In this document: positions 1,851-57,718 of the stretch, piece by piece
Layout: every line of letters begins with the position of its first letter
Position numbering within the stretch: the first letter of the stretch is position 1
DNA from: Deroplatys truncata
Lineage: Eukaryota; Arthropoda; Insecta; Mantodea; Mantidae
Length of the DNA: 64,000 nucleotides
Direction: 5' to 3'
NCBI GenBank assembly: GCA_030765065.1
Contig: CM060981.1
Coordinates: 224,199,152 to 224,263,151, forward strand
Program-made: the position numbers and the translations under genes
The notes under the pieces: generated by a model
Told to the model about the DNA's origin: nothing
Seen by the model: the letters and a program-made list of their open reading frames with translations, nothing else
Database searches by the model: none

Positions 1851-2878
1851 TATGCAACATTAAGGCATCGCATACAAAACAGTTTACTGTAATTTCAGCC
1901 TTCTTTATGATCTTATACGTTTTCTACAAGTGTTCTGAAAGCATTTCTGGCACATTATAAGGATTTGCAAGAAGCAGATAGAAAAGCCAGCTTTTGTATG
2001 TGTAATCTATACATTGATATGGAACTAAATGATTGTAGGAAGAAAGTCCTGAGATTTTACACATCCGATTTGTTTTAGCTTCAGTTTGTTATTTGCATAT
2101 TTTTCATCGAGATCCTAAATGATTCCACATTCGCCGAATTTCTTAGCCAGTTATTTCTATTGCTCTTTTACTGGTTCACGTATATTATTTTGCTTATCTA
2201 AAAAAAACCTGCATCACATGGTTTGAAACAATCTTCCATGTATTCTACGCAAGTAAATGTATTCATGTTGCTTTTGCTGTAACGCCAGAAAACTCTCCTC
2301 TCGTGAACTTCCTATAAGAACATAAGGCGAGTGATGCACTTTCCTTTTCTTGGGTGATAACTTGATAAGGATGGAGACAGAAGACAAACGTCGTCTGGGA
2401 GTTAGAGAAGCATTTTTTTTTTTTTTACTTCAGCTGACAATGTTATTATTTCCAATACTTTGTGCGTTTAGTTACTCCCATGCTCGGAAGATAGGAGCAC
2501 TGAACATGCGCCGCATTGCCACCTGGCGGCAACTGATCCAAACAAACGTCGAGGACATCAGTCTCCTAAAATTCTTTGACCACACTCATTTTCATTCATA
2601 ATAATCATGTTTGTCCTTCTGAATGTCCTCCGTGACATTTCACATATTAACCTTTTCAAAGCTACGAAGCTGGGTTTTACCATAAGACTGGCAGAATAAA
2701 AAATGGCTGTATTTAAATTTAAAATCGCAGTGACAAAACAATGCTGTGGCGTGCGGTGCATCAGAATGAACTTCCCCTACTTTGTATAGCTTACAAAATC
2801 CAAAATAGATGAAAAATGCTTGTAATAAATATCTACATATTTTCAATAACACATATAAAAATGAAAACACTTTGAATT
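1851..2878. other. No recognisable feature
   Basis: AT-rich sequence. Short open frames here (for example near 2350-2600) show no family resemblance, and I see no repeat structure. Confidence 0.5.
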
Positions 2879-3020
2879 AAAAAAAACCAATCTAATGTGG
2901 TACATTCACATGACTTTCTTTACTTACTATTATATAAACCATTCTTACAACTGCCTATTATTCCATCTACTTCTTACTAATCGAGATAAACTTTCATTAC
3001 ACTTTTCGTTGTAGTCGTAA
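2879..3020 (-). repeat. Old family A terminal fragment
   Basis: CTAATGTGGTACATTCACATGACTTTC and the following TAATCGAGATAAACTTTCATTACAC correspond to the T-rich end of the older family A subtype, on the minus strand (compare 31420 onward). Confidence 0.6.
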
Positions 3021-3280
3021 AGTAGGCTAAGGCGATAGTTAGAACTTCATAAAGCGTGTCGCAATGTGATGGCTGCATATTACTTGCATGACCTGGAGGG
3101 GGGAGCGGAAGCCAATATACACTTGCCACTAATAAAAAGTGTATTTGACAGTGGCGTAGCTTGATACTGTGTTCTGCGTATACTATATTTGAAAAATTGA
3201 ATTTAGAATTTTTTAAATGATGCACAATTTCCCATACGTTAGTGTTTCATAAAATAGTGTCAATTCTCTATTACGATTCG

Positions 3281-8983: not shown

Positions 8984-9888
8984 AAAAATCTGATGTGTTA
9001 CACTCACATGACTTTCTCTACTCTTGTACAAACTATTTTTACAAACGCTTATTCTCCATCTACTTCATGTTAATCAAGATAAACCTTTGCAGACTCTATC
9101 TTATTGCTAAGTTTCTTGTAGATGCAAGGGGAATATATATTTACAAGGACAATATAGAAATACAGTAGCCTTTAAGCATATACATATCTCTTAATAGCTG
9201 GTTGCTAGGTGCAGCACCATTCACTTTCCCACAGATTAATACTCTTTGCATATCCAAGACAAAAAAAAAAAATAATAACGAATTTCCATTTGACAAAAAA
9301 AAGTATTGAAACATTTAAGGGAATAACAAGCAATATCTCTAAAATGGTTCACTCAACAACAAAAAATGTATATGACATAAATTGTGTATTTTAACGCGAT
9401 CTACATTTTTTGTGTAGTAAAATTTTGTCTATCTCTTATGGTTTACCAGTTATGCAAAAGTCGTTCACAATGAAGAATACTTTTGGAGACATTCCCAGGA
9501 AATTCGAGATATACATTTTATTTGTCATGAAAATATCTTAAACATATGATATTTTAATCAAAATCGTTAGAGCCATTTTTGAGAAAATTAAAATTTTCGA
9601 AAAATCTTCCATGTAAAGGGTAATCTGGGGTGGGGGGATTTTCCTGAAAACCTTCGTGTCGCATCTCTGGAAGATACTGAACCTAAATACCAAGTTTGGT
9701 GTTTATCCGACTGTTCGTTTCTGAGTTATGCTGTTCACAGACACACAGACACACGGACATGTTTCCAAAAATGTTTTTTTGGATTCAGGGGATCTCAAAA
9801 CATGTATTTCCGGTGCATTCTCGGTTTCGAATTTTTGGGTTGAATACAATACTTCCCCTACTTACTATACGCAGTAGAGAAAGTAAAA
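8984..9888 (-). repeat. Family A element, full length
   Basis: Begins AATCTGATGTGTTACACTCA, includes ACTTTCTCTAC at 9010-9020, the short CA microsatellite at about 9738-9756, and ends at the hairpin TACTATACGCAGTAGAGAAAGT. Confidence 0.9.
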
Positions 9889-10354
9889 ATGAATAACGAA
9901 TTCCCATTTGAGAAAAAGTTTAAGTATTGGAAAATTTAAGGGAATAACAAGCAATATCTCGAAAATGGTTCACTCAAAAAAAAAAATGTATATGACATAA
10001 ATTGTGTATTTTAACGCGATATACATTTTTGTGTAGTAAAATTTTGCCTATCTCTTATGGTTTACCAGTAATCCAAAAGTCGTTCAAAATGAATACGTTT
10101 GAGACATTCCCAGAAAATTCGAGATATACATTTTATTTGCCATAAAAATGTCTTAAACATATGATAATTTAATCACAATCGTTAGAGCCGTTCTTGAGAA
10201 AATTAAAATTTTCGAAAAATGTTCCATGCAAAGGGTAATCTGGGGCGGTGAGAGTTTCTTGAAAACGTTTGTGTCGCATCTCTGGAAGATACTGAACCTA
10301 AATACCAAGTTTGGTGTTTATCCTACTGTTCTTTTCTGAGTTATGCTGTTCTCA

Positions 10355-10416
<62 letters not shown>

Positions 10417-10547
10417 CATGTTTCCAAAAATACTTTTTTGGATTCAGGAGGCCTCAAAACATGTGTTTCCAGTGAAATCTCGGTATCGAATTTTTGAGTG
10501 GAATGCAATACTTCCCCATCTTACTATACGTAGTAGAGAAAGTAAAA
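9889..10547 (-). repeat. Family A element, missing its T-rich end
   Basis: Joined directly to the preceding copy. It starts at AATGAATAACGAATTCCCAT, the middle of the family, and runs through the CACG/CA microsatellite to TATACGTAGTAGAGAAAGTA. Confidence 0.88.
10353..10413. repeat. (CACG)n(CA)n microsatellite in a family A copy
   Basis: About eight CACG units followed by about fourteen CA units, at the family's fixed microsatellite position. Confidence 0.95.
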
Positions 10548-14654: not shown

Positions 14655-15056
14655 GGAATTAATTGTTCTTCCACGCAAGCCGTGTGTTGGACAAGGTTGG
14701 AAAGGTAGAATCAGATGACTGAAAAGTTCAATGCCACAGCCGGGATTTGAACCACAGATCTTCCGGTCTCCGTCCGGTTGCTGTAACCACTGAGCTACCA
14801 TGGCAACATGCCGGCGGGATATTAAATTCTCCAGTTGATTCGCATTTTTCCCGGTAAACCACAACCTTGTGAATCCAACCTTGTCCAACACACGGCGTGT
14901 ATGGAAGAACAATTAATTCCATTAATTGACCTAATAGTGGTTGAAACTATGAAGCCCGGGACTTGAAGTACTTACAACATTGTAAGTCGCCATTGGGGTA
15001 TGTCATCTCAATACAATTTGAGATCTCCTTGTGGTTTTAAGATATTTGCATGACTG
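14655..15056. mobile_element. tRNA-cored SINE C, rearranged copy with inverted arms
   Basis: 14655-14702 (GGAATTAATTGTTCTTCCAC ... GTTGGACAAGGTTGG) is an inverted copy of 14873-14920. Between them, on the minus strand, lies a 74-nt tRNA-like sequence (14732-14805). After the right arm, 14921-15056 carries the other end of the same family on the plus strand (TAATAGTGGTTG ... GAGATCTCCTTGTGG). Compared with 43091-43406, part of this copy has been inverted within a tandem array. Confidence 0.75.
14732..14805 (-). other. tRNA-like core of SINE C
   Basis: Minus strand: TGCCATGGTAGCTCAGTGG ... GGTTCAAATCCCGGCTGTGGCA. A seven-pair acceptor stem (one G-T), a D-stem GCTC and box B GGTTCAAATCC are present, with no CCA. 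It is an RNA polymerase III promoter relic, not a functional tRNA gene in my reading. Confidence 0.65.
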
Positions 15057-19466: not shown

Positions 19467-19628
19467 ATTACTTTCTCTACTACGTATAGTAAGTAGGGGA
19501 AGTATTGTATTCCACCCAAAAATTCGATACCGAGATTTCACCGGAAATATATGTTTTGAGACCCCCTGAATCCAAAAAAAAGCATTTTTGGAAACATGTC
19601 CGTGTGTGTGTGTCTGTCTGTAAACATA
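19467..19628 (+). repeat. Family A left end only
   Basis: ATTACTTTCTCTACTACGTA through the GTGTGTGTGTCTGTCTGT microsatellite. It stops there and abuts the T-rich end of an opposite-strand copy. Confidence 0.9.
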
Positions 19629-19860
19629 AAAAAAAAGCTGATGTGTTACACTCACATAACTTTCTCTACTCTTGTACAATCTAATTTTACAAACGCCTAT
19701 TCTCCATATGCTTCATGTTAATCGAGATATCGAGATGTCAATCTTATTGCTAATTTTCTTGTAGATGCAAGGGGAATATGGTAGCTTTTAAGCGATAGTC
19801 AAATATTTTAACGCTGGTTGCTATGTGGCGAATTCCATTCTCTTTGCATGTTCAGGACAT
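19629..19860 (-). repeat. Family A right-end fragment (tandem unit 1)
   Basis: GCTGATGTGTTACACTCACA ... TGGTTGCTATGTGGCGAATT ... CAGGACAT. The next unit repeats the same segment almost identically, so about 230 bp are tandemly duplicated. Confidence 0.88.
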
Positions 19861-20766
19861 AAAAAAATCTGATGTGTCACACTCACATGACTTTCTCTAC
19901 TCTTGTACAATCTAATTTTACAAACGCTTATTCTCCATATGGTTCATGTTAATCGAGATATCAATCTTATTGGTAATTTTCTTGTAGATGCAAGGGAAAT
20001 ATGGTAGCTTTTAAGCGATAGTCAAATATTTTAACGCTGGTTGCTATGTGGCGCATTCCATTCTCTTTGCATGTCCAGGACATAAAAAAAATGAATAACG
20101 AATGTGAGAAAAAGTATAAGTATTGTAAAATTTAAGGAAATAACAAGCAATATCTCGAAAACGGTTCACTCAACAAAAGAAATGTATATGACATAAGTTG
20201 CGTATTTTAACGCGATCTACATTTTTTTGTGTAGTAAAATTTTGTCTATCTCTTATGGTTTACCAGTTATGCAAAAGTCGTTCTCAATGAAGAATACTTT
20301 TGGAGACATTCCCAGAAAATTCGAGATATACATTTCATTTCTCATGACATTATCTTAAACATATGATATTTTCATCAAAATCGTTAGAGCCATTTTTGAG
20401 AAAATTAAAATTTTCGAAAAATCTTCCATGTAAAGGGTAGTCTGGGGTGGGGGGATTTTCTTGAAAACCTTCGTGTCGCATCTCTGGAAGATACTGAACC
20501 TAAATACCAAGTTTGGTGCTTATCCGACTGTTCGTTTTTGAGTTATGCTGTTCACAGACACACACACACAGACACACACACACACACAGACACACAGACA
20601 CACACACAGACACACACACAGACACACACACGGACATGTTTCCAAAAATCCTTTTTTTGGATTCAGGAGGTCTCAAAACATGTATTTCCGGTGAAATCTC
20701 GGTATCGAATTTTTGGGTGGAATGCAATACTTCCCCTACTTACTATACGTAGTAGAGAAAGTAAAA
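19861..20766 (-). repeat. Family A element, full length (tandem unit 2)
   Basis: From AATCTGATGTGTCACACTCA to ACTATACGTAGTAGAGAAAG. The microsatellite at 20556-20630 is a long mix of ACAC and ACAG units. Confidence 0.9.
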
Positions 20767-21513
20767 AGAACAGCATAACTCAGAAACGAACAGTCGGATA
20801 AACACCAAACTTGGTATATAGGTTCAGTATCTTCCAGAGATGCGACACGAAGGTTTTCAAGAAAATCCACCCACCCCAGATTACCCTTTACATGGAACAT
20901 TTTACGAAAATTTTAATTTTCTCAAAAATGGCTCTAACGATTTTGATTAAAATATCATATGTTTAAGATATTTTCATGACAAATAAAATGTATATCTTGA
21001 ATTTTCTGGGAATGTCTCCAAAAGTATTCTTCATTGTGAACGACTTTTGCATAACTGGTAAACCATAAGAGATAGACAAATTTTTACTACACAAAAAAAT
21101 GTAGATCGCGTTAAAATACACAATTTATTCATATACATTTTTTGTTGTTGAGTGAACCATTTTCGAGATATTGCTTGTTATTCCCTTAAATTTTTCAATA
21201 CTTATTTCCTCAAATGGGAATTCGTTATTCATTTTTTGTCTTGTATATGCAAAGAGTATTAATCTGTGGCAAAGAGAATGGTGCTGCACCTAGCAACCAG
21301 CTATTAAGAGATATGTATATGCTTAAAGGCTACTGTATTTCTATATTGCCCTTGTAAATATATATTCCCCTTACATCTACAAGAAACTTAGCAATAAGAT
21401 AGAGTCTGCAAATGTTTATCTCGATTAACATGAAGTAGATGGAGAATAAGCGTTTGTAAAAATAGTTTTACAAGAGTAGAGAAAGTCATGTGAGTGTAAC
21501 ACTCAGATTTTTT
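20767..21513 (+). repeat. Family A element lacking its left ~140 bp
   Basis: Begins at GAACAGCATAACTCAGAAAC, just past the microsatellite, directly after the hairpin end of the opposite-strand copy. It runs to GAGAAAGTCATGTGAGTGTA and the T run. Confidence 0.9.
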
Positions 21514-22262: not shown

Positions 22263-23115
22263 TTTACTTTCTCTACCATGTATACCTAGTATGTAGAGAA
22301 GGTATTGCATTCCACCCAAAAAATTCGACACAAAGATTTCACCGGAAACACATGTTTTGAGGTCCCTAAATAAACAAACGAATTTTTAGAAAAAGCTCTG
22401 TGTATGTGTGTCTATGAACAGCACAACTCAAAAACAAAACTCGGATAAATAACAAACTTGGTATTTAGGTTCAGTTCCTTCCATAGATGCGACAGGAAGA
22501 TTTTCAAGAAAATCCCCCACCCCAAACTACCTTTTACATGGAAAATTGTTCCTTATTTTTTATTTTCTAAACCATGGCTCTAACGATTTTTATAAAAATA
22601 CCATATGTTAAAGATATTTATATGGCTAATAAAATGTATATATTTTAGTTTCTGGGAATAGCCCGTGAAGAACTCTTCATTCGAAAGAAATTTTGTATAA
22701 TCTTGTTTAACTGTAAACGTTAAGCGATAGACGAAAACGTACTGCATAAAAAATGTAGATCTCTTTAAAACACAATTTATTTCAAATACCTTTTCTTTTT
22801 GGAAATCAGCCATTTCCGAGATATCGTTATTAATGGTTCAAATTGTTTAATACTTAGCCATTCTTTTAAAGTCCTGTACATTTACAGTAGTTTTTCGCAA
22901 TGTCATGGAAAAAGTATGGAACTTTAAAGGCCAGCGTAAAACATCTGACTATCGCTATTCCTTTTCTATTGACAACGAAATGTGTAATGCAGCTATTTCC
23001 GGACAGGTTTATCTCGGATAAAATGAAGTAGCCAGGAAAATAAACTTCCGTAAGAATAATTTTTATATCCTTGAGGGTAGAGAAAGCCTGTGCATGTAAC
23101 CCATCAGACTTTTAA
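22263..23115 (+). repeat. Family A element, older subtype, full length
   Basis: ACTTTCTCTACCATGTATAC at the left, the microsatellite relic TGTGTATGTGTGTC, the older-subtype middle (GGGAATAGCCCGTGAAG) and GCATGTAACCCATCAGAC at the right. Confidence 0.85.
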
Positions 23116-26236: not shown

Positions 26237-27191
26237 TTACTTTCTCTACTACGTATAGCAAGTAGGGGAAGTATTGTATTCCATCCAAAAATTCGATACC
26301 GAGATTTCACCGGAAATACATGTTTTGAGGCCTCCTGAATAAAAAAAAAAGCATTTTTGGAAACATGTCCGTGTGTGTGTCTGTCTGTGTGTCTGTGAAC
26401 AGCATAACTCAGAAACGAACAGTCGGATAAACATCAAACTTGGTATTTATGTTCAGTATCTTCCAGAGATGCGTCACAAAGGTTTTCAAGAAAATCCCCC
26501 CACCACTGATTACCCTTTACATGGTACATTTTTCGAAAATATCAATTTTCTCAAAAATGGCTCTAACGATTTTGATTAAAGTATCATATGTTTAAAATAT
26601 TTTCATGGCAAATAAAATGTATATCTTGAATTTTTTTGGGAATGTCTCCAAAAGTATTCTTCATTGTGAACGACTTTTGTATAACTGGTAAACCATAAGA
26701 AATAGACAAAATTTTACCACACAAAAAATGTAGATTGCGTTAAAATACACAATTTATGTGGAACATTTTCTTGTTTTTTTTTTGTTGAGTGAACCATTTT
26801 CGAGATATTGCTTGTTATTCCCTATAATTTTTCAATACTTATTTTCTCAAATAGGAATTCGTTATTAATTGTTTTGCAAAGAGTTATAATCTGTAGCAAA
26901 GGGAATGGTGCTGCACCTAGCAACCAGCTATTAAGAGATATGTCTATGCTTAAAGGCTACTGTATTTCTATATTGCCCTTGCAAATACAAAACAAGGGGA
27001 ACAAAGTACGCCTTAAGCGATAATCAAATATTTTAGAACTGGTCGCTATGTGTAGAATGTAATTCTCTTTGCATGTCAAAAGATCGTTTCTGCAAATGTT
27101 TATCTCGATTAATATAAAATAGATGGAGAATAAGAGTTTGCAAAAATAGTTTGTACAAGAGTAGAGAAAGGCATGTGAGTGTAACACATCG
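26237..27191 (+). repeat. Family A element, full length, foldback subtype
   Basis: TACTTTCTCTACTACGTATA to GTGTAACACATCGG. The microsatellite lies at 26370-26396. The internal inverted duplication (arms about 26875-26985 and 26990-27075) is the same as at 644-1021 and 45101-46059. Confidence 0.9.
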
Positions 27192-27860
27192 GTTTTTTTT
27201 GTATTAGTTTCAGCTCAAGCTCATAAAGTAATTTAAACAACGCCGATTAAAATGTCTTTTTGAGTCTCCTTATTGCTCTAAAAAGCAAAAGCCACAAACT
27301 CGCAGTACCGTAAATATATATTATACTTTATTTCATCTTTCTGGGACGTAACCCAATTATTAAAGAATCTGAAGTAAACTGCATGTGCGGAACATTCTGA
27401 ATAAAAAAAATGCAATTAAAACTTACATTATTGCCCACAAAGGTTCTAAAATATAAAAAAAACCATAATTTGTTTTCAAATTATAGGTTTTGAGTGTTTT
27501 AATAGTAATCTAAACGACCGTTTTTGAGATCTTTAAATGAGTTGTGTTGTGTTCCTTTGATAAAATTACTGAAAGGCACACAATCACACCGACTTTCAAA
27601 CAGCAGCTTTTGGACGAAGCGATAATACTTAGAAACTAGAGAAAAGAGAGGGAGAGAAGATCGCGGAGGTCAGGATAGAACCCTAGGCCTTAGAAATGGC
27701 CGCTTACGATTCAACGCTACCTATTGCTTCATCCGTGGCGCATTCTGGGCTCTTCAATCTTTTCCCTAAAACCATTCGCACTACTTCGTTAATTTGTACT
27801 TTGAATAAGAATTACTATTGTATAATTTTCATAATATTTTGCGTAAAGCACGGCTATCAT
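27192..27860. other. No recognisable feature
   Basis: Low-copy sequence. A weak tRNA-like pair of boxes may lie on the minus strand at 27665-27745, too degraded to call. Confidence 0.4.
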
Positions 27861-31420: not shown

Positions 31421-32236
31421 AAATCTGATGTGGTACATTCACATTACTTTCTCTACCCTCTATCCCTTATTAGCGGGCATACAAATTATTCTTACGAAAG
31501 TTTATTTCCTTATCTACTTAATCTTAATCGAGATAAACCTTGATTCAAAAGGAATAGCGGTAGCCAAATGTTTTAGAACTCGACATTATACGCTGGCCAT
31601 AAAATTAAATACTCTTTTCATGACATCGCGTGAAACAACCGAAAATCGACAGGACTTCCATTAATAACCTATATCTCCGAAATGGTTGATGCTATAAAGA
31701 ATTATTTGAAATAAATTGTATATTTTAAAAAGTTCTACCTTTGTGTTTTTACGAACTAAGTTTCCCTCTATCGCTTAATGTTTACCAGTTATACAAGATT
31801 ATACAAAGTTCCTTCAGACTGAAGTGGACTTCACAGGCTATTCTCAGAAAATTTAAGATATACATTTTATTTGTCATGTACATATATATGGCATTTTAAT
31901 CAAAATTATTAGGCACTTTTTTAGAAAATCAGAAATTTCGAAAAATGTTCCATGTAAAGGGGTAGTTTGGAGTGGTGGTAGTTTCTTGATAATCTTCGTG
32001 TTGCATCTTTGGATGGTACTGAATCTACATACCAAGTTTGGCATTTATCCGACTTTGCCTTTATGAGTTATGCTGTTCACAGAGACATGGACACACACAC
32101 ACTGACCTCTTTCTAAAAATGCTTCTGTTTTTGGATTTAGGAGGTCTCAAAACACGTACTTCCGGCGAAATCTCGATATAGAACTTTTGGGTGGAATACA
32201 ATACGTTCTCTATCTACTATGTACGTGGGAGAGAGT
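31421..32236 (-). repeat. Family A element, older subtype, full length
   Basis: AAATCTGATGTGGTACATTC to TCTACTATGTACGTGGGAGA. Tail-to-tail with the preceding copy: the T-rich ends meet at about 31418. Confidence 0.82.
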
Positions 32237-43090: not shown

Positions 43091-43406
43091 AAATTAATTG
43101 TTCTTTCACACAAGCCGTGTGTTGGACAGGGTTGGAATGGTAGAATCAGATGTCTGAAAAATTCAATGCCATAGCCGGGATTTGAACCACGGATCTCCCG
43201 GTCTCCATCCGGTTGCTCTAACCATTGAGCTACCATGGCAACATGCCGACACAACATTAAATTCTCCAACTGATTCGCATTTTCCCCGGTAAACCACAAG
43301 GAGATCTCAAATTGTATTGAGATGTCATACCCCAATGGCGACTTACATTCTTTGTAAGAACTTAAGTCCCGGGCTTTATAGTACAACCACTATTAGGTCA
43401 ATTAAT
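43091..43406 (-). mobile_element. SINE C with tRNA-like core, full unit
   Basis: From AATTAATTGTTCTTTCACAC to CAATTAATGG on the plus strand; the element reads on the minus strand. The 74-nt tRNA-like core is central (43167-43240) rather than at one end. Flanks such as GAGATCTCAAATTGTATTGA and GACTTACATTCTTTGTAAG form small palindromes. A second unit follows head-to-tail. Confidence 0.78.
43167..43240 (-). other. tRNA-like core of SINE C (best preserved)
   Basis: TGCCATGGTAGCTCAATGGT ... GTGGTTCAAATCCCGGCTAT then GGCA. Acceptor stem of seven pairs, D-stem GCTC/GAGC, anticodon stem CCGG with loop ATGGAGA (would be anticodon GGA), box B intact. The T-stem is imperfect. Three copies in the window keep exactly 74 nt. 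Confidence 0.65.
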
Positions 43407-43597
43407 GGAATTAATTGTTCTTTCACACAAGCCACGTGTTAGAATCAGATGACTGAAAAATTCAATGCCATAGCCGGGATTTGAACCACGGATCTCCCGA
43501 TCTCCGTCCGATTGCTCTAACCACTGAGCTACCATGGCAACATGCCGACACGACATTAATTTCTCCAACTGATTCGCTTTTTCCCGGTAAAAATACA
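43407..43597 (-). mobile_element. SINE C, second tandem unit (truncated)
   Basis: GGAATTAATTGTTCTTTCAC to TTTTTCCCGGTAAA, with the tRNA-like core at 43466-43539. The GTTGGACAGGGTTGG segment after the left end is deleted. Confidence 0.75.
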
Positions 43598-45100: not shown

Positions 45101-46059
45101 TTACTTTCTCTACTACGTATGGTAAGTAGGGGGAGGATTGTATTCCACCCAAAAATTCAATACCGAAATTTCACCAGAAATATATGTTTTGAGACCCCCT
45201 GAATCCAAAATAAGCATTTTTGGAAACATGTCCGTGTGTGTGTGTGTGTGTGTGTGAACACTATAACTCAGAAACAAACAGTCGGATAAACACCAAACTT
45301 GGTATTTAGGTTCAGTATCTTCCAGAGATGCGACACGAAGGTTTTCAAGAAAATCCCCCACCCCAGATTACCCTTTACATGGAACATTTTTCGAAAATTT
45401 TTATTTTCTCAAAAATGGCTGTAACAATTTTGATTAAAATATCATATGTTTAAGATATTTTCATGACAAATAAAATGTATGACTTGAATTTTCTGGGAAT
45501 GTCTCCAAAAGTATTCTTCATTGTCAACGACTTTTGCATAACTGGTAAACCGTAAGCGATAGACAAAATTTTACTACACAAAAAATGTAGATCGCGTTAA
45601 AATACACAATTTATGTCATACATTTTTGGTGTTGTTGACAACCATTTTCGAGCTATTGCTTGATATTCCCTTAAGTTTTTCAATACTTATTTTCTCAAAT
45701 GGGAATTCGCTATTCATTTTTTTTTGTCTTGGATATGCAAAGAGTATTAATCTGTGGCAAAGAGAATGGTGCTGCACCTAGCAACCAGCTATTAAGATAT
45801 AAGTCGATGCTTAAAGGCTACTGTACTTCTATATTGACCTTGCAATTACAAAACAAGGGGAACATAGTACGCCTTAAGCGATAGTCAAATATTTTTAGAA
45901 TTGGTCGCTATGTGTAAAATGTAATTCTCTTTGCATGTCAAAAGATCGTTTCTGCAAATGTTTATCTCGATTAATATGAAATAGATGGAGAATAAGAGTT
46001 TGTAAAAATAGTATGTACAAGAGTAGAGAAAGTCATGTGAGTGTAACACATCAGATTTT
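45101..46059 (+). repeat. Family A element, full length, foldback subtype
   Basis: Reference-quality copy: TTACTTTCTCTACTACGTAT (hairpin end), (GT)n at 45233-45256, foldback arms at about 45735-45840 and 45851-45943, then AGAGTAGAGAAAGTCATGTG and CACATCAGATTTTTTTT. It is flanked by T runs, so no unambiguous target duplication. Confidence 0.93.
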
Positions 46060-46457: not shown

Positions 46458-48127
46458 AATTTTTACTTTTTCTACCATATACATAGCAGGTAGAGAAGGC
46501 ATTGCAATCCAACAAAAAATTTGAAACTGAGATTTCACGGAAATACATATTCTGAAGCCCCCTAAATCCAAATAAAGCATTTTTGGAAACGTGTCCGCGT
46601 ACGTGTGTGTGTGCCTGAACAACAAAACTCAAAAACGATAACTGTGATAAACACCACATTGGTATTAAGAGTTCAGTGTATTTCAAGCATGCAACACGAA
46701 GATTTTCAAGAAAATACACCCAACCCAACTACCCTTTACAAGAAACAGTTTTCAAAAAATTTGATTTTCTAATAAATTGCCCTAACGATTTTGATTAAAA
46801 TACCATATATGAAAGATATTTACATGACAAATAGAATGGATATCTTGAATTTTCTGGGAATAAGCTAGGAAATCCTCATCATTCGGAAGGAATTTTGTAT
46901 AATCTTGTATAACTGGTAAGCGTTAAACGATAGACGAAAACGTACCACAACAAAAAACGTAATCTCTTTAAAACACACAATTTATTTAAAGTAAGTTTTT
47001 TGTGCCATAAGCCGTTTCTGAGATATCCATTATTAAAACTTCGAATTGTTCAATACTTAACATTCTTTCCAAATCCCATTTCAGTTGTTTCTCGCGATTG
47101 CATGAAAACAGTATGGAATTTTAAGGCCAACATATAGCGTGCAGTTTTTGAACATTTGACTATCGCTGTTCTCTTTGTAGCTATATCGAAATGTGTAATT
47201 GGTTATTCCTGCAAGTGTTTTGAAAGGGGATATATCATACATATTATACATTGTACATTTGAAAGGGGATATATCATACATATTATACATTGTACATATG
47301 AAAGGGGAACCACACACATAAGAATTGTATAGCAATAATTTAATTCACTGAATGTTAAAACATTCAACATGTAACTTTGTACAGAGCTATTTGTAAGCAA
47401 CGGGCGCGCTGGCTAATTGAATGGGAATTCCTGGAACTCATAACGACCGTGCCTGGCACAGAGTGGTACGACGCTACATGATGGCGCTGAAGCGCAAGGT
47501 TCTGAAACCTCATATTTTCATACATGCTTGGGTAATGCGGCCTGAGGGCCAATGGGAAGCATCGTTACATTTTCAAACGTAGAGGACGGCGTGGGTAAGC
47601 CGCCCTATATAAGACCAGATTTTGCCGAGGGGGCACTCTTACTTATTACCAGTTCAGCGCAACAAGAAGTCACGCCGACGCAAGGTGCTACAGATGCACG
47701 TGGGTGCATATAAAGGTGGGGATGCGTGTGAAGATAGATAGGCTCCTGATAAATATTCAAGTGGTGGGATAAAGTAAATGGGAAAAGCTAGCCGCCTATA
47801 TTTATTTGAATAATGAAATAAACATCAGTTATAAAGGGAAAACTTGCAGTGTATTTTTAACTTGCCTCACCCACTAGAACCTGAGTTTAAAGAGACTTAG
47901 CAATTAGGTAGGAATGGAGTACTCAACTACCGACGAGCATCACTAGCCGAGGAAGAAAAATACTACAACAGCACGCTGCAAGAGTCGACCAACCATTTCC
48001 CGCTACAGTTTATTTGTATTAAAATATGGTCGAATGAAAAATAAGCTTTAGTAACAATAGTTTATATACTTATTAATACAGATAGAGGGTAGAGTGAGAC
48101 ATGTGAATGTATCACATCAGATTTTTA
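46458..48127 (+). repeat. Family A element, older subtype, split by a solo LTR
   Basis: The left part, TTTTTCTACCATATACATAG to TATTCCTGCAAGTGTTT (47220), resumes at GTTTATTTGTATTAAAATAT (48008) and ends ACATGTGAATGTATCACATC. The break falls inside the family's conserved TGCAGAGGTTTATCTCGATT, which shows the 787-bp piece between is an insertion. Confidence 0.82.
47221..48007 (+). mobile_element. Solo LTR with internal 39-bp tandem repeat
   Basis: Begins TG, ends CA, and is flanked by GTTT on both sides (47217-47220 and 48008-48011), inside an interrupted family A copy. CCCTATATAAGACC at 47602-47615 is a likely TATA box and GAAATAAAC at 47815 a possible polyadenylation signal, in LTR order. 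The first 80 bp hold two and a part copies of a 39-bp unit (TGAAAGGGGATATATCATAC...). The LTR retrotransposon family is not identified. Confidence 0.62.
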
Positions 48128-55608: not shown

Positions 55609-56200
55609 TTTACTTTCTCTACTACGTACAGTAAGTAGGGGAAGTATTGTATTCCACCCAAAAATTCCATACCGAGATTTCACCGCAAATACATGTTTTG
55701 AGGACCCCTGAATCCAAAAAAAAACATTTTTTGAAACGTGTGTGTGTGTATGTGAATAGCATATCTCAGAAACGAACAGTTGGATAAACATCAAACTTGG
55801 CATTTAGGTTCAGTATCTTCCAAGGATGCGACACGAAGGTTTTCAAGAAAATCCCTCCACCCCAGACTACCCTTTACATGGAACATTTTTCGAAAATTTT
55901 AATTTTCTCCAAAATGGCTCTAACGATTTTGATTAAAATATCATATGTTTAAGATACTTTCATGACAAATAAAATGTATATCTTGAATTTTCTGGGAATG
56001 TCTCTAAAAGTATTCTTCATTGTGAACGACGTTTGCATAACTGATAAACCATAAGGGATAGACAAAATTGTACTACACAAAAAATGTAGATCGCGTTAAA
56101 ATACACAATTTATGTTGAGTGAACCATTTTCGAGATATTGCTTGTTATTCCCTTAAATGTTTCAATACTTATACTTTTTCTCAAATTCGTTATTCGTTTT
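55609..56200 (+). repeat. Family A element, right end replaced by the next copy
   Basis: TTTACTTTCTCTACTACGTA to ATTCGTTATTCGTTTTTTAC. Its right ~330 bp are missing and another left end begins at once, giving a direct tandem. Confidence 0.9.
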
Positions 56201-57523
56201 TTACTTTCTCTACTACGTATAGTAGGGCGGCGCCGTGGCCGAGTGGTTCGACCGCTCGCCTCCCACCGAGGCGACCCGGGTTCAATCCCAGGGATTGCAT
56301 GTGGGATTTGTGGTGGACGAAGCGGCGTCTGGGCGGGTTTTCTCCGGGTTCTCCGGTTTCCCCCGCCATTCATTCCACCAACTGCTCCATCATCATCTTT
56401 CCTTTCATACATTTCACCGACATTTCGTTTCATCTACTTCCTTCATCCCATACCAGGCATCGGGCTGATCACCCATCCTGGATGCTCTGTCCGATCCATG
56501 AGTGTCTGCTCCTCGACGGGCCTCTGACCCCAGGCACCCGCTTGTAAGTCCTGGGGGGTGTAAGTCCTACATAAGAGGAGGGTAAACAGATAATGAATGA
56601 ATGAATGAATGAATACTACGTATAGTAAGTAGGGGAAGTATTGTATTCCACCCAAAAATTCGATACCGAGATTTCACCGGAAATACATGTTTTCAGACCC
56701 CTGAATCCAAAAAAAGCATTTTTGGAAACATGTCCGCGCGCGCGCGCGCGTGTGTGTGTGTGTGTCTGTGAACAGCATAACTCAGAAACGAACAGTTGGA
56801 TAAACACCAAACTTGGTATTTAGGTTCAGTATCTTTCAAGGATGCGACACGAAGGTTTTCAAGAAAATCCCCCCACCCCAGAGCACCCTTTACATGGAAC
56901 ATTTTTCAAAAATTTTAATTTTCTCAAAAATGGCTCTAACCATTTTGATTAAAATAGCATATGTTTAATATATTTTCATGACAAATAAAATGTATATCTT
57001 GAATTTTCTGGGAATGTCTCCAAAAATATTCTTCATTGTGAACGACTTTTGGTAAACTGGTAAAACCATAAGAGAGAGACAAAATTTTACTGCACAAAAG
57101 ATGTAGATCGCGTTAAAATACACAATTTATGTCGTATACATTTTTGTTGTTGAGTGAACCATTTTCGAGATATTGCTTGTTATTCCCTTAAATGTTTCAA
57201 TACTTATTTTCTCAAATGGGAATTCGTTATTCATTTTTTTTTGTCTTGGATATGCAAAGAGTATTAATCTGTGGAAAAGGGAATAGTGCTGCACCTAGCA
57301 ACCAGCTATTAAGAGATATGTATATGCTTACAGGCTACTGTATTTCGATACTGCCTTTGTAAATATATATTCCCCTTGCATCTACAAGAAAATTAGCAAT
57401 AAGATAGAGTCTGCAAATGTTTATCTCGATTAACATGAAGTAGATGGAGAATAAGCGTTTGTAAAAATAGTTTGTACAAGAGTAGAGAAAGTCATGTGAG
57501 TGTAACACATCAGATTTTTTTGG
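56201..57523 (+). repeat. Family A element, full length, with SINE S1 inside its hairpin
   Basis: ACTTTCTCTACTACGTATAG is interrupted by the SINE at 56225-56614, then the element runs to GTGTAACACATCAGATTTTTTT. The microsatellite at 56735-56767 is (CG)n(TG)n. Confidence 0.93.
56225..56614 (+). mobile_element. SINE S1, full length (tRNA-derived)
   Basis: The head GGCGGCGCCGTGGCCGAGTGG (box A) and CCCGGGTTCAATCCCAGGG (box B) resemble a serine/leucine tRNA. The body is about 300 bp and GC-rich, with tail (ATGA)n at 56592-56614. The 13 bases ACTACGTATAGTA occur at 56212-56224 and 56615-56627, an exact target duplication. It inserted into the family A terminal hairpin. Overlapping open frames of up to 142 codons in several frames are chance products of the SINE. 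Confidence 0.95.
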
Positions 57524-57718
57524 TCCTGGTAATGCAAAGAGAATGGAATACTCCACATAGCAACCAGCTCTTAAAAGATTTGACTATCGCTTAAAGCCTA
57601 CCAATTCCCCTTGCATCTACAAGAAAATTAGCAATAAGATTAACATCTCGATAACATGAAGCATATGGAGAATAAGCGTTTGTAAAAATAGGTTGTACAA
57701 GAGTAGAGAAAGTAACAA
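57524..57718 (+). repeat. Family A right-end fragment in tandem
   Basis: GGTCCTGGTAATGCAAAGAG to ACAAGAGTAGAGAAAGTAAC, the short (non-foldback) version of the right part. Confidence 0.88.

Follow-up and report, generated by a model that had tools for sequence, protein, structure and literature searches.

Family A, a Helentron-associated repeat of a mantis genome, with nested and composite copies and a Rep-helicase partner

A 64-kb stretch of mantis DNA (the window) holds at 45101..46059 a non-coding repeat of 959 bp, one full copy of a family here called A, and the locus raises the question of what class of element this is, what moves it, and how copies come to lie inside one another. Helentrons, the transposons to which it is compared below, are thought to copy themselves by rolling-circle replication. 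A preliminary description of the window had proposed either a non-autonomous Helentron-associated element (DINE/HINE type) or a new foldback type.

Abundance, subfamilies and ends of family A

With at most one mismatch, the motif ACTTTCTCTAC is found at 47 places in the window where 1.33 would be expected, a count reached in none of 100 shuffles, and a BLAST search with the 45101-46059 copy as query matched 71 stretches, or 30.3% of the window, so that the initial estimate of about 40 copies or fragments was fair. A 264-kb set, made up of the window and 20 stretches of 10 kb each picked for holding a family A copy, gave 71 calls of 5' ends and 82 of 3' ends; at least two of the 71 5' calls are false, and a few end calls are false or diverged. 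The consensus check recommended in the preliminary description was run on the 22 full copies of this set, which have 95-98% identity to the consensus and a mean pairwise identity of 93%. At least three subfamilies have common ends: A1 of ~960 bp, which includes the named copy, A2 of ~830 bp and A3 of ~900 bp. They differ at consensus ~620-865, and the 756-841 segment is inverted in A2 and A3.

From the genome assembly (4.29 Gb in 818 contigs), 20 stretches of 1.5 kb (30 kb) were taken at preset round coordinates. Family A is present in 7 of the 20 and covers 4,450 of 30,000 bases (14.8%, bootstrap 5-26%); in a reversed control, consisting of the 20 preset stretches and the reversed window, 198 bases were matched by the same search. 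Extrapolated from this small 30-kb sample, the family would make up roughly 0.2-1.1 Gb of the genome, and the sample, though small, supports the view that it is a major genome component. Older relatives at ~68-77% identity, some with similar ends, are seen at 46463-46985, 22264-22856 and 31707-32234 of the window, among others, implying a long history for the lineage. No exact match to a family A 3'-end pattern was found in a viral sequence collection, which may omit records near this genome.

Family A begins with TTACTTTCTCTAC and ends with GTAGAGAAAGTC-ATGTG-N7-CACAT-CAGATTTT, and over the 71 called 5' and 82 called 3' ends the consensus termini are constant (TTACTTTCTCTACTACGTATAGTAAGTAGGGGAAGTA... 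and ...GTAGAGAAAGTCATGTGAGTGTAACACATCAGATTTT). The subterminal inverted repeats (subTIRs) are asymmetric, the 11-bp 5' copy (ACTTTCTCTAC) starting two nucleotides (TT) from the 5' end and the 3' copy (GTAGAGAAAGT) ending 26 nt before the 3' end. The first ~38 nt form a long hairpin, with a predicted fold of -17.2 kcal/mol for the 5' 45 nt of the consensus. The named copy confirms the subTIRs, 5' hairpin and T-run end first described, and it has T-runs at both ends. The single terminal hairpin of that description is corrected by a second structure that had been overlooked, the 3' palindrome ATGTG-AGTGTAA-CACAT, which lies between the 3' subTIR and CAGATTTT, 8 nt from the end; its stem is short and the palindrome is weak, the last 40 nt having a predicted fold of only -5.4 kcal/mol.

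The microsatellite had been reported as always present about 120 bp in. A GT run is indeed found at element position 134 of the named copy, but "always" does not hold: a dinucleotide run of at least five units lies between positions 133 and 168 in 16 of the 22 full copies, and the other six fail this test. The longest stop-free frame of the consensus has 100 codons, within the range of 200 shuffles (mean 68, maximum 114), which indicates, as originally stated, that family A is non-coding. Coordinates in the window are given in Table 1.

Table 1. Family A features located in the window
Feature	Position	Strand	Basis or remark
Full-length family A copy, subfamily A1, 959 bp	45101..46059	+	sequence, consensus, empty sites
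5' subTIR ACTTTCTCTAC	45103..45113	+	
5' terminal hairpin / inverted repeat taking in the 5' subTIR	45101..45138	+	consensus fold; named copy differs at a few positions
GT microsatellite	45234..45255	+	
Internal T-run (consensus ~617-624)	45717..45725	+	elsewhere, recurrent landing site for family A and Helentron
3' subTIR GTAGAGAAAGT	46023..46033	+	
3' palindrome ATGTG-AGTGTAA-CACAT	46035..46051	+	8 nt before 3' end
3' terminus CAGATTTT	46052..46059	+	
A1 copy split near consensus 153/156 by opposite-strand composite unit	19468..21511	+	
Composite H-T-T unit (a single 5' end, then two 3' ends in succession), one-piece insert in A1 copy 19468..21511	19633..20764	-	
Head-head: head (1-621), then second 5' end and copy at internal T-run	8985..10545	-	
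Head-head-tail-tail nest at internal T-run; last tail truncated (~consensus 933)	55610..57713	+	
Second full-length A1 copy	26237..27197	+	

Target sites and the autonomous partner

The flanks of the 45101-46059 copy belong to another repeated host sequence, and empty sites were sought by comparing its joined flanks with the genome. Scoring of the best 40 of 2,438 candidates gave 38 matches across the join, the remaining 2 being the flanks of the copy itself. The top 10 spanning matches (79-87% identity), which are paralogous empty sites, all align through the join, reading GTTA(A/C), a T-rich stretch and then mostly CAAAGTCC. In none of the ten is target sequence duplicated or lost, apart from variation within the T-run and next to it, in line with the earlier remark that no clean target duplication was visible. 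Of 47 units tested in the 264-kb set, 18 gave a junction-spanning match, several being trivial self-matches; other nested or paralogous sites (units u9, u18 and u24) agree with insertion into a T-run without duplication.

After two of the 71 5' calls had been dropped as false, further T beyond the terminal TT or TTTT was counted in 57 of 69 5' flanks and 76 of 82 3' flanks of the 264-kb set; where the 5' flank has no further T, the base is A in 11 of the 69 and C in one. The 5' flanks are bimodal, with exactly three T before TTAC in 37 of 69 and no further T (often TTA directly before TTAC) in 12 of 69, perhaps a TTW target rule. Flanks lie inside family A sequence at 22 of 70 5' and 27 of 82 3' ends, a few of these calls being false or weak. 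As this proportion approximates the share of family A in the sampled regions (30% of the window, 12-55% of the other stretches), self-insertion follows abundance. Eight 5' ends of the 264-kb set, L013:2064 among them, are at the internal T-run near consensus 623. The 264 kb contain 284 T-runs of 7 or more, and 35 of them are such sites, so that 8.4 of 68 5' ends are expected there; the internal T-run was rejected as a HINE hotspot, there being no excess beyond T-run length and abundance. The test varies with the cut, with 4.5 expected (P 0.08) for runs of at least 6 and 1.7 (P 0.0003) for runs of at least 5.

An autonomous partner, which the preliminary description had suggested seeking, is present in the same genome as a Rep-helicase element with both ends. 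A PF14214 profile search of the genome gave at least 152 matches (150 of 291 candidates scored), with 18 of the matches listed falling in stop-free frames of 2,000 codons or more. The partner copy C9:66062625-66073042 is 10,418 bp long with one stop-free frame of 2,324 codons. It opens with a match to family A 1-624 at 93% and continues with one to 1-843 at 94% (92-94% for these 5' stretches of 624-843 bp), and its 3' end matches family A 925-961 at 35 of 37 positions (95%). A second copy, C1, likewise has family A 1-624 and then 1-843 at its 5' end, and both copies have GTAGAGAAAGTTATGTGAATGTAACACATCAGATTTT at the 3' end; no match to family A consensus 844-924 was found in the ends of either. 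C9 and C1 are 97.8% identical over the 5' 2.3 kb and 99.8% over the 3' 1.2 kb, and their flanks differ.

Six of the 18 long-frame copies, at six loci, were checked, and all six have family A-type ends with 11-bp subTIRs identical to those of family A at both ends. The 193-400 bp fetched from their 3' ends show 99-100% identity to C9. Over the last 60 bp, family A and C9 match at 41 positions, including 34 of the last 36. By the published rule, at least 11 bp of identical subTIRs define a HINE family and a subfamily calls for a match of at least 80% over the last 60 bp, which puts family A and the partner (the driver, hereafter) in one family but in separate subfamilies. Among the drivers examined, none was found with a tail exactly like that of family A.

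The C9 frame, scanned against Pfam in three pieces, matches Herpes_teg_N (2.8e-09), DUF6570 (5.1e-17), Helitron_like_N (PF14214, 4.5e-28) and PIF1 (PF05970, 5.6e-29). Its motif 2, VEFQMRGSPHEH, reads EFQMRGSPHEH and fits ExQxRGSPHxH; an S between G and P in Rep motif 2 is given as a Helentron mark in PMC4067079. The last 100 aa match Exo_endo_phos_2 (PF14529) at 6.3e-05, with 23.3 bits against a Pfam cut-off of 27.4, a score for the 100-aa tail piece only, as the N-terminal part of the domain lies in the adjoining piece, which was scanned separately. An RPA frame, which some Helentrons have, was not found: all other stop-free frames of at least 120 codons in the 13-kb C9 stretch lie within the main frame.

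The N-terminal region of the protein has features of its own. In L029, the Herpes_teg_N-like domain (2.8e-09) lies at 1530-2370, at the N-terminus of the Helentron protein, with DUF6570 further on, and ~12.5 in-frame repeats of 63 bp, each of 21 aa and highly charged, occupy 2393-3258. PMC4067079 mentions OTU cysteine proteases in Helentrons; a literature search for work joining at least two of Helitron, Herpes_teg_N and DUF6570 found none. Four of the 18 long frames listed have 2,324 codons and seven depart from this length by multiples of 21, which suggests that partner copies vary in their number of 21-aa repeats.

Drivers are also found within family A. Three of the six (C5, C8 and C3) sit at the internal T-run of three HINE copies. 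The HINE tails adjoining them differ by 3.5-7%, while the last 193-249 bp of the drivers are 99-100% identical, indicating independent insertions. These few cases (3/6) are suggestive of a driver preference for the internal T-run.

Nests, composites and rebuilt drivers

In what follows, a head (H) is the element from position 1 to the internal T-run near 623, and a tail (T) is the rest. At L011 701-3384 the order is H H H T T T, each next 5' end beginning at the T-run that ends the previous head and, behind each 3' end, the next tail picking up at that T-run. Such an array might also arise without nesting and remobilisation, by unequal exchange or by tandem duplication in place, and L011 by itself would suit this explanation, its three heads being 97.0-97.3% alike and an identity matrix giving no pairing of heads with tails, as the pieces are too alike. 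However, the same heads are equally like the head at window 20764 (97.1-97.4%), and throughout, head-head and tail-tail junctions fall at the two termini of the element and at one T-run.

A further argument against local duplication comes from the nest H H T T at L015 1351-3153, whose outer and inner parts match different elements. Its outer head is 98.6% identical to the head of L018:787-1674, a copy that lies nested in another family A copy, and its outer tail 99.6% identical to the L018 tail; the inner head and inner tail pair instead with those of window 20764/19864, at 97.3% and 98.6%. Each of these pairings is the best match in the identity matrix, and this is the only nest with clear linkage.

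Multi-tail units also stand whole inside other copies, again arguing against duplication in place. The H-T-T unit at window 19633-20764 has one tail that matches the inner tail of L015 at 98.6% and one that matches its outer tail at 98.3%. Copying of a nest of the L015 type would give this result if it began at the inner head and ran on through the inner tail. At the 3' junction of this unit, between the second tail and the target, are 8-9 nt of unexplained filler (TTTTTATGT), which is similar to the start of the A3 sequence just past its internal T-run and is possibly a trace of the source nest. L016 3972-5366 reads H T T T, with a first tail of A1 type, and lies whole inside another copy, its flanks falling at -486 and -477 with 77-81% identity.

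The drivers themselves are composite. Five of the six (C9, C1, C5, C8 and C10) have a common H-H start, 96.7-99.7% identical to C9 across the junction, and this recurrence of one junction at five loci is likewise difficult to reconcile with local events. Nesting, and composites at independent sites, are directly observed here, and an origin of the arrays by local duplication or unequal exchange is accordingly considered unlikely.

The first head of these drivers is of A3 type, with 97.6% identity to window 20764 as against 93.7% to the driver's own second head. Two of the H-H drivers, C5 and C8, lie inside an A3-type HINE, with its head before them and its tail after them; the second head of C8 holds an A1 insert. 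C3, the sixth driver, begins with an A3-type head that is damaged upstream, continues with a single driver head and the driver tail, and closes with an A3 tail, an order of pieces that reads as a single-head driver inside a HINE. Its driver head is nearer to L018 (94.7%) than to C9's own head (91.5%). The product arrangement, an H-H driver, is thus well shown, and the precursor arrangement, a single-head driver inside a HINE, reads as such at one imperfect locus, C3 (1/6).

Proposed mechanism and relation to known elements

Inverted repeats near both ends and a hairpin would also be expected of a foldback element or MITE whose repeats are recognised by a DDE transposase of the cut-and-paste kind, with duplication of a TT or TTAA-like target; T-rich flanks could mask a TT duplication, and DINE-1 has been classed as a MITE before (PMC2374699). 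Against this, the repeats of family A are subterminal and asymmetric (2 versus 26 nt) and accompanied by a separate 3' palindrome, the empty sites show no duplication outside the T-run, and an element with the same ends encodes Rep/PIF1. Chance placement of the Rep element between family A ends is unlikely, because the same arrangement is found at six of six loci. A DDE-moved foldback element or MITE is therefore highly improbable, and the new foldback type once proposed is not needed, as the HINE reading suffices. Of negligible probability is membership among non-autonomous canonical Helitrons (5' TC, 3' CTRR, insertion between A and T), with which family A has in common a 3' palindrome, no target duplication and a partner of the rolling-circle class, but not the ends, which are TTAC and CAGATTTT with no TC start or CTRR end, nor the T-run target, nor the partner's Rep motif, RGSPHEH, which is of Helentron type and goes with an endonuclease-like C-terminus.

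We conclude with high confidence that family A is a HINE, that is, a non-autonomous and non-coding Helentron relative, with joining at T-runs and, probably, Helentron-driven movement and composites derived from nests. The DINE/HINE reading first offered is supported by the consensus, the empty sites and the Rep-helicase partner, the drivers examined being another subfamily by their last 60 bp. Given the partner's domains and the missing target duplication, we infer that family A is moved by the partner's proteins through rolling-circle copy-out. Starts and stops would be chosen at nests. The Helentron Rep nuclease, PIF1 helicase and endonuclease would recognise the 5' end (TTACTTTCTCTAC and hairpin) and the 3' end (inverted subterminal repeat, palindrome and CAGATTTT) of family A. 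One strand would be copied from the 5' end to a 3' terminator formed by subTIR and palindrome, and the copy would be joined into a T-run, leaving the target unduplicated. Family A has T-runs of its own, which is why its copies often come to lie within one another. The resulting nest would have two starts and two stops, so that copying from the outer head to the inner tail would give H-H-T, and a start at the inner head with the inner tail passed would give H-T-T; both composites would then move as units.

On balance, we lean towards a broader scheme of "nest and swap", in which the T-run of family A is the landing pad and nests, through their alternative starts and stops, give rise to multi-head or multi-tail composites, each transposing as a unit. 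The driver would have been rebuilt likewise: five of six have a HINE-type head and then their own, two of these lie in a HINE of that type, and the sixth reads as the expected precursor order. In this manner the parasite would return ends to the driver, and nest-and-swap may have contributed to one family filling ~15% of 4.3 Gb. The class of element is already known; any novelty lies in the abundance and the visible nest-and-swap history. To earlier proposals of end-swapping and end-bypass are added a linked nest, multi-tail units and the driver's extra HINE-type head, all in one genome.

HINEs are marked by a subTIR of ~11-15 bp located 2-4 nt from the 5' end and an inverted copy near the 3' end, and insert without duplication into T-rich targets with at least two T on each side (PMC4067079). 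Those of Metaseiulus occidentalis and Culex resemble family A in having a 5' subTIR a few nucleotides in, a 3' subTIR followed by a palindrome, a T-rich target without duplication, a variable number of terminal T, no coding capacity, and a partner with Rep, helicase and endonuclease (in family A's partner, an endonuclease-like C-terminus) and common termini (PMC4067079). The 3' subTIR is 26 nt from the end in family A and 38-60 nt in the mite HINEs. Unlike the Metaseiulus and Culex systems as described there, the partner here matches the family A tail at 41 of the last 60 bp, is without an RPA frame and has an N-terminal Herpes_teg_N-like domain with 21-aa repeats, and elements with several heads or tails occur. 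DINE-1/INE-1 of Drosophila, likened here by description, has a 5' inverted repeat nested in the subTIR, a microsatellite, a 3' stem loop, a T-rich target and very high copy number, as does family A (PMC4067079); the genome size here, 4.29 Gb, is unlike the Drosophila setting.

In FoHeli of Fusarium oxysporum, too, self-insertion occurs, and some elements have several 5' termini but a single 3' terminus, for which a nick at the outer 5' end and a stop at the inner 3' end were invoked (PMC5148889). The duplicated 5' sequence is typically <200 bp in FoHeli and ~624 bp in family A, and a linked head/tail nest, multi-tail units and H-H drivers are found here in one genome. Tandem arrays have been attributed to end bypass (PMC4067079). 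In Crassostrea gigas, non-autonomous Helentron relatives also carry repeats (PMC7492417), but these are satellite-like tandem repeats, whereas in family A whole heads and tails are multiplied by nesting. A Helitron content of ~6% in vesper bats and 6.6% in Heliconius counts as a considerable genome share (PMC4067079). A single HINE family at ~15% of 4.3 Gb (from a small sample, 5-26%), with a long-frame partner, would if true be an extreme case, and at such a share family A would be a rich source of recent insertions. The presence of linked nests beside relocated composites makes end-swapping and end-bypass directly testable in one genome.

Other repeats were seen in and near family A in the window. 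A tRNA-like, SINE-type insert with a TGAA-type tail occupies 56228-56612, in the 5' hairpin of the inner head of the 55610..57713 nest, and has TACTACGTATAGTA on either side, a target duplication of 14 bp. Three matches to tRNA models lie on the minus strand, at 14732-14804, 43166-43240 and 43466-43538, and ARAGORN calls one of them tRNA-Ser; instead of genes, they may represent the heads of SINEs.
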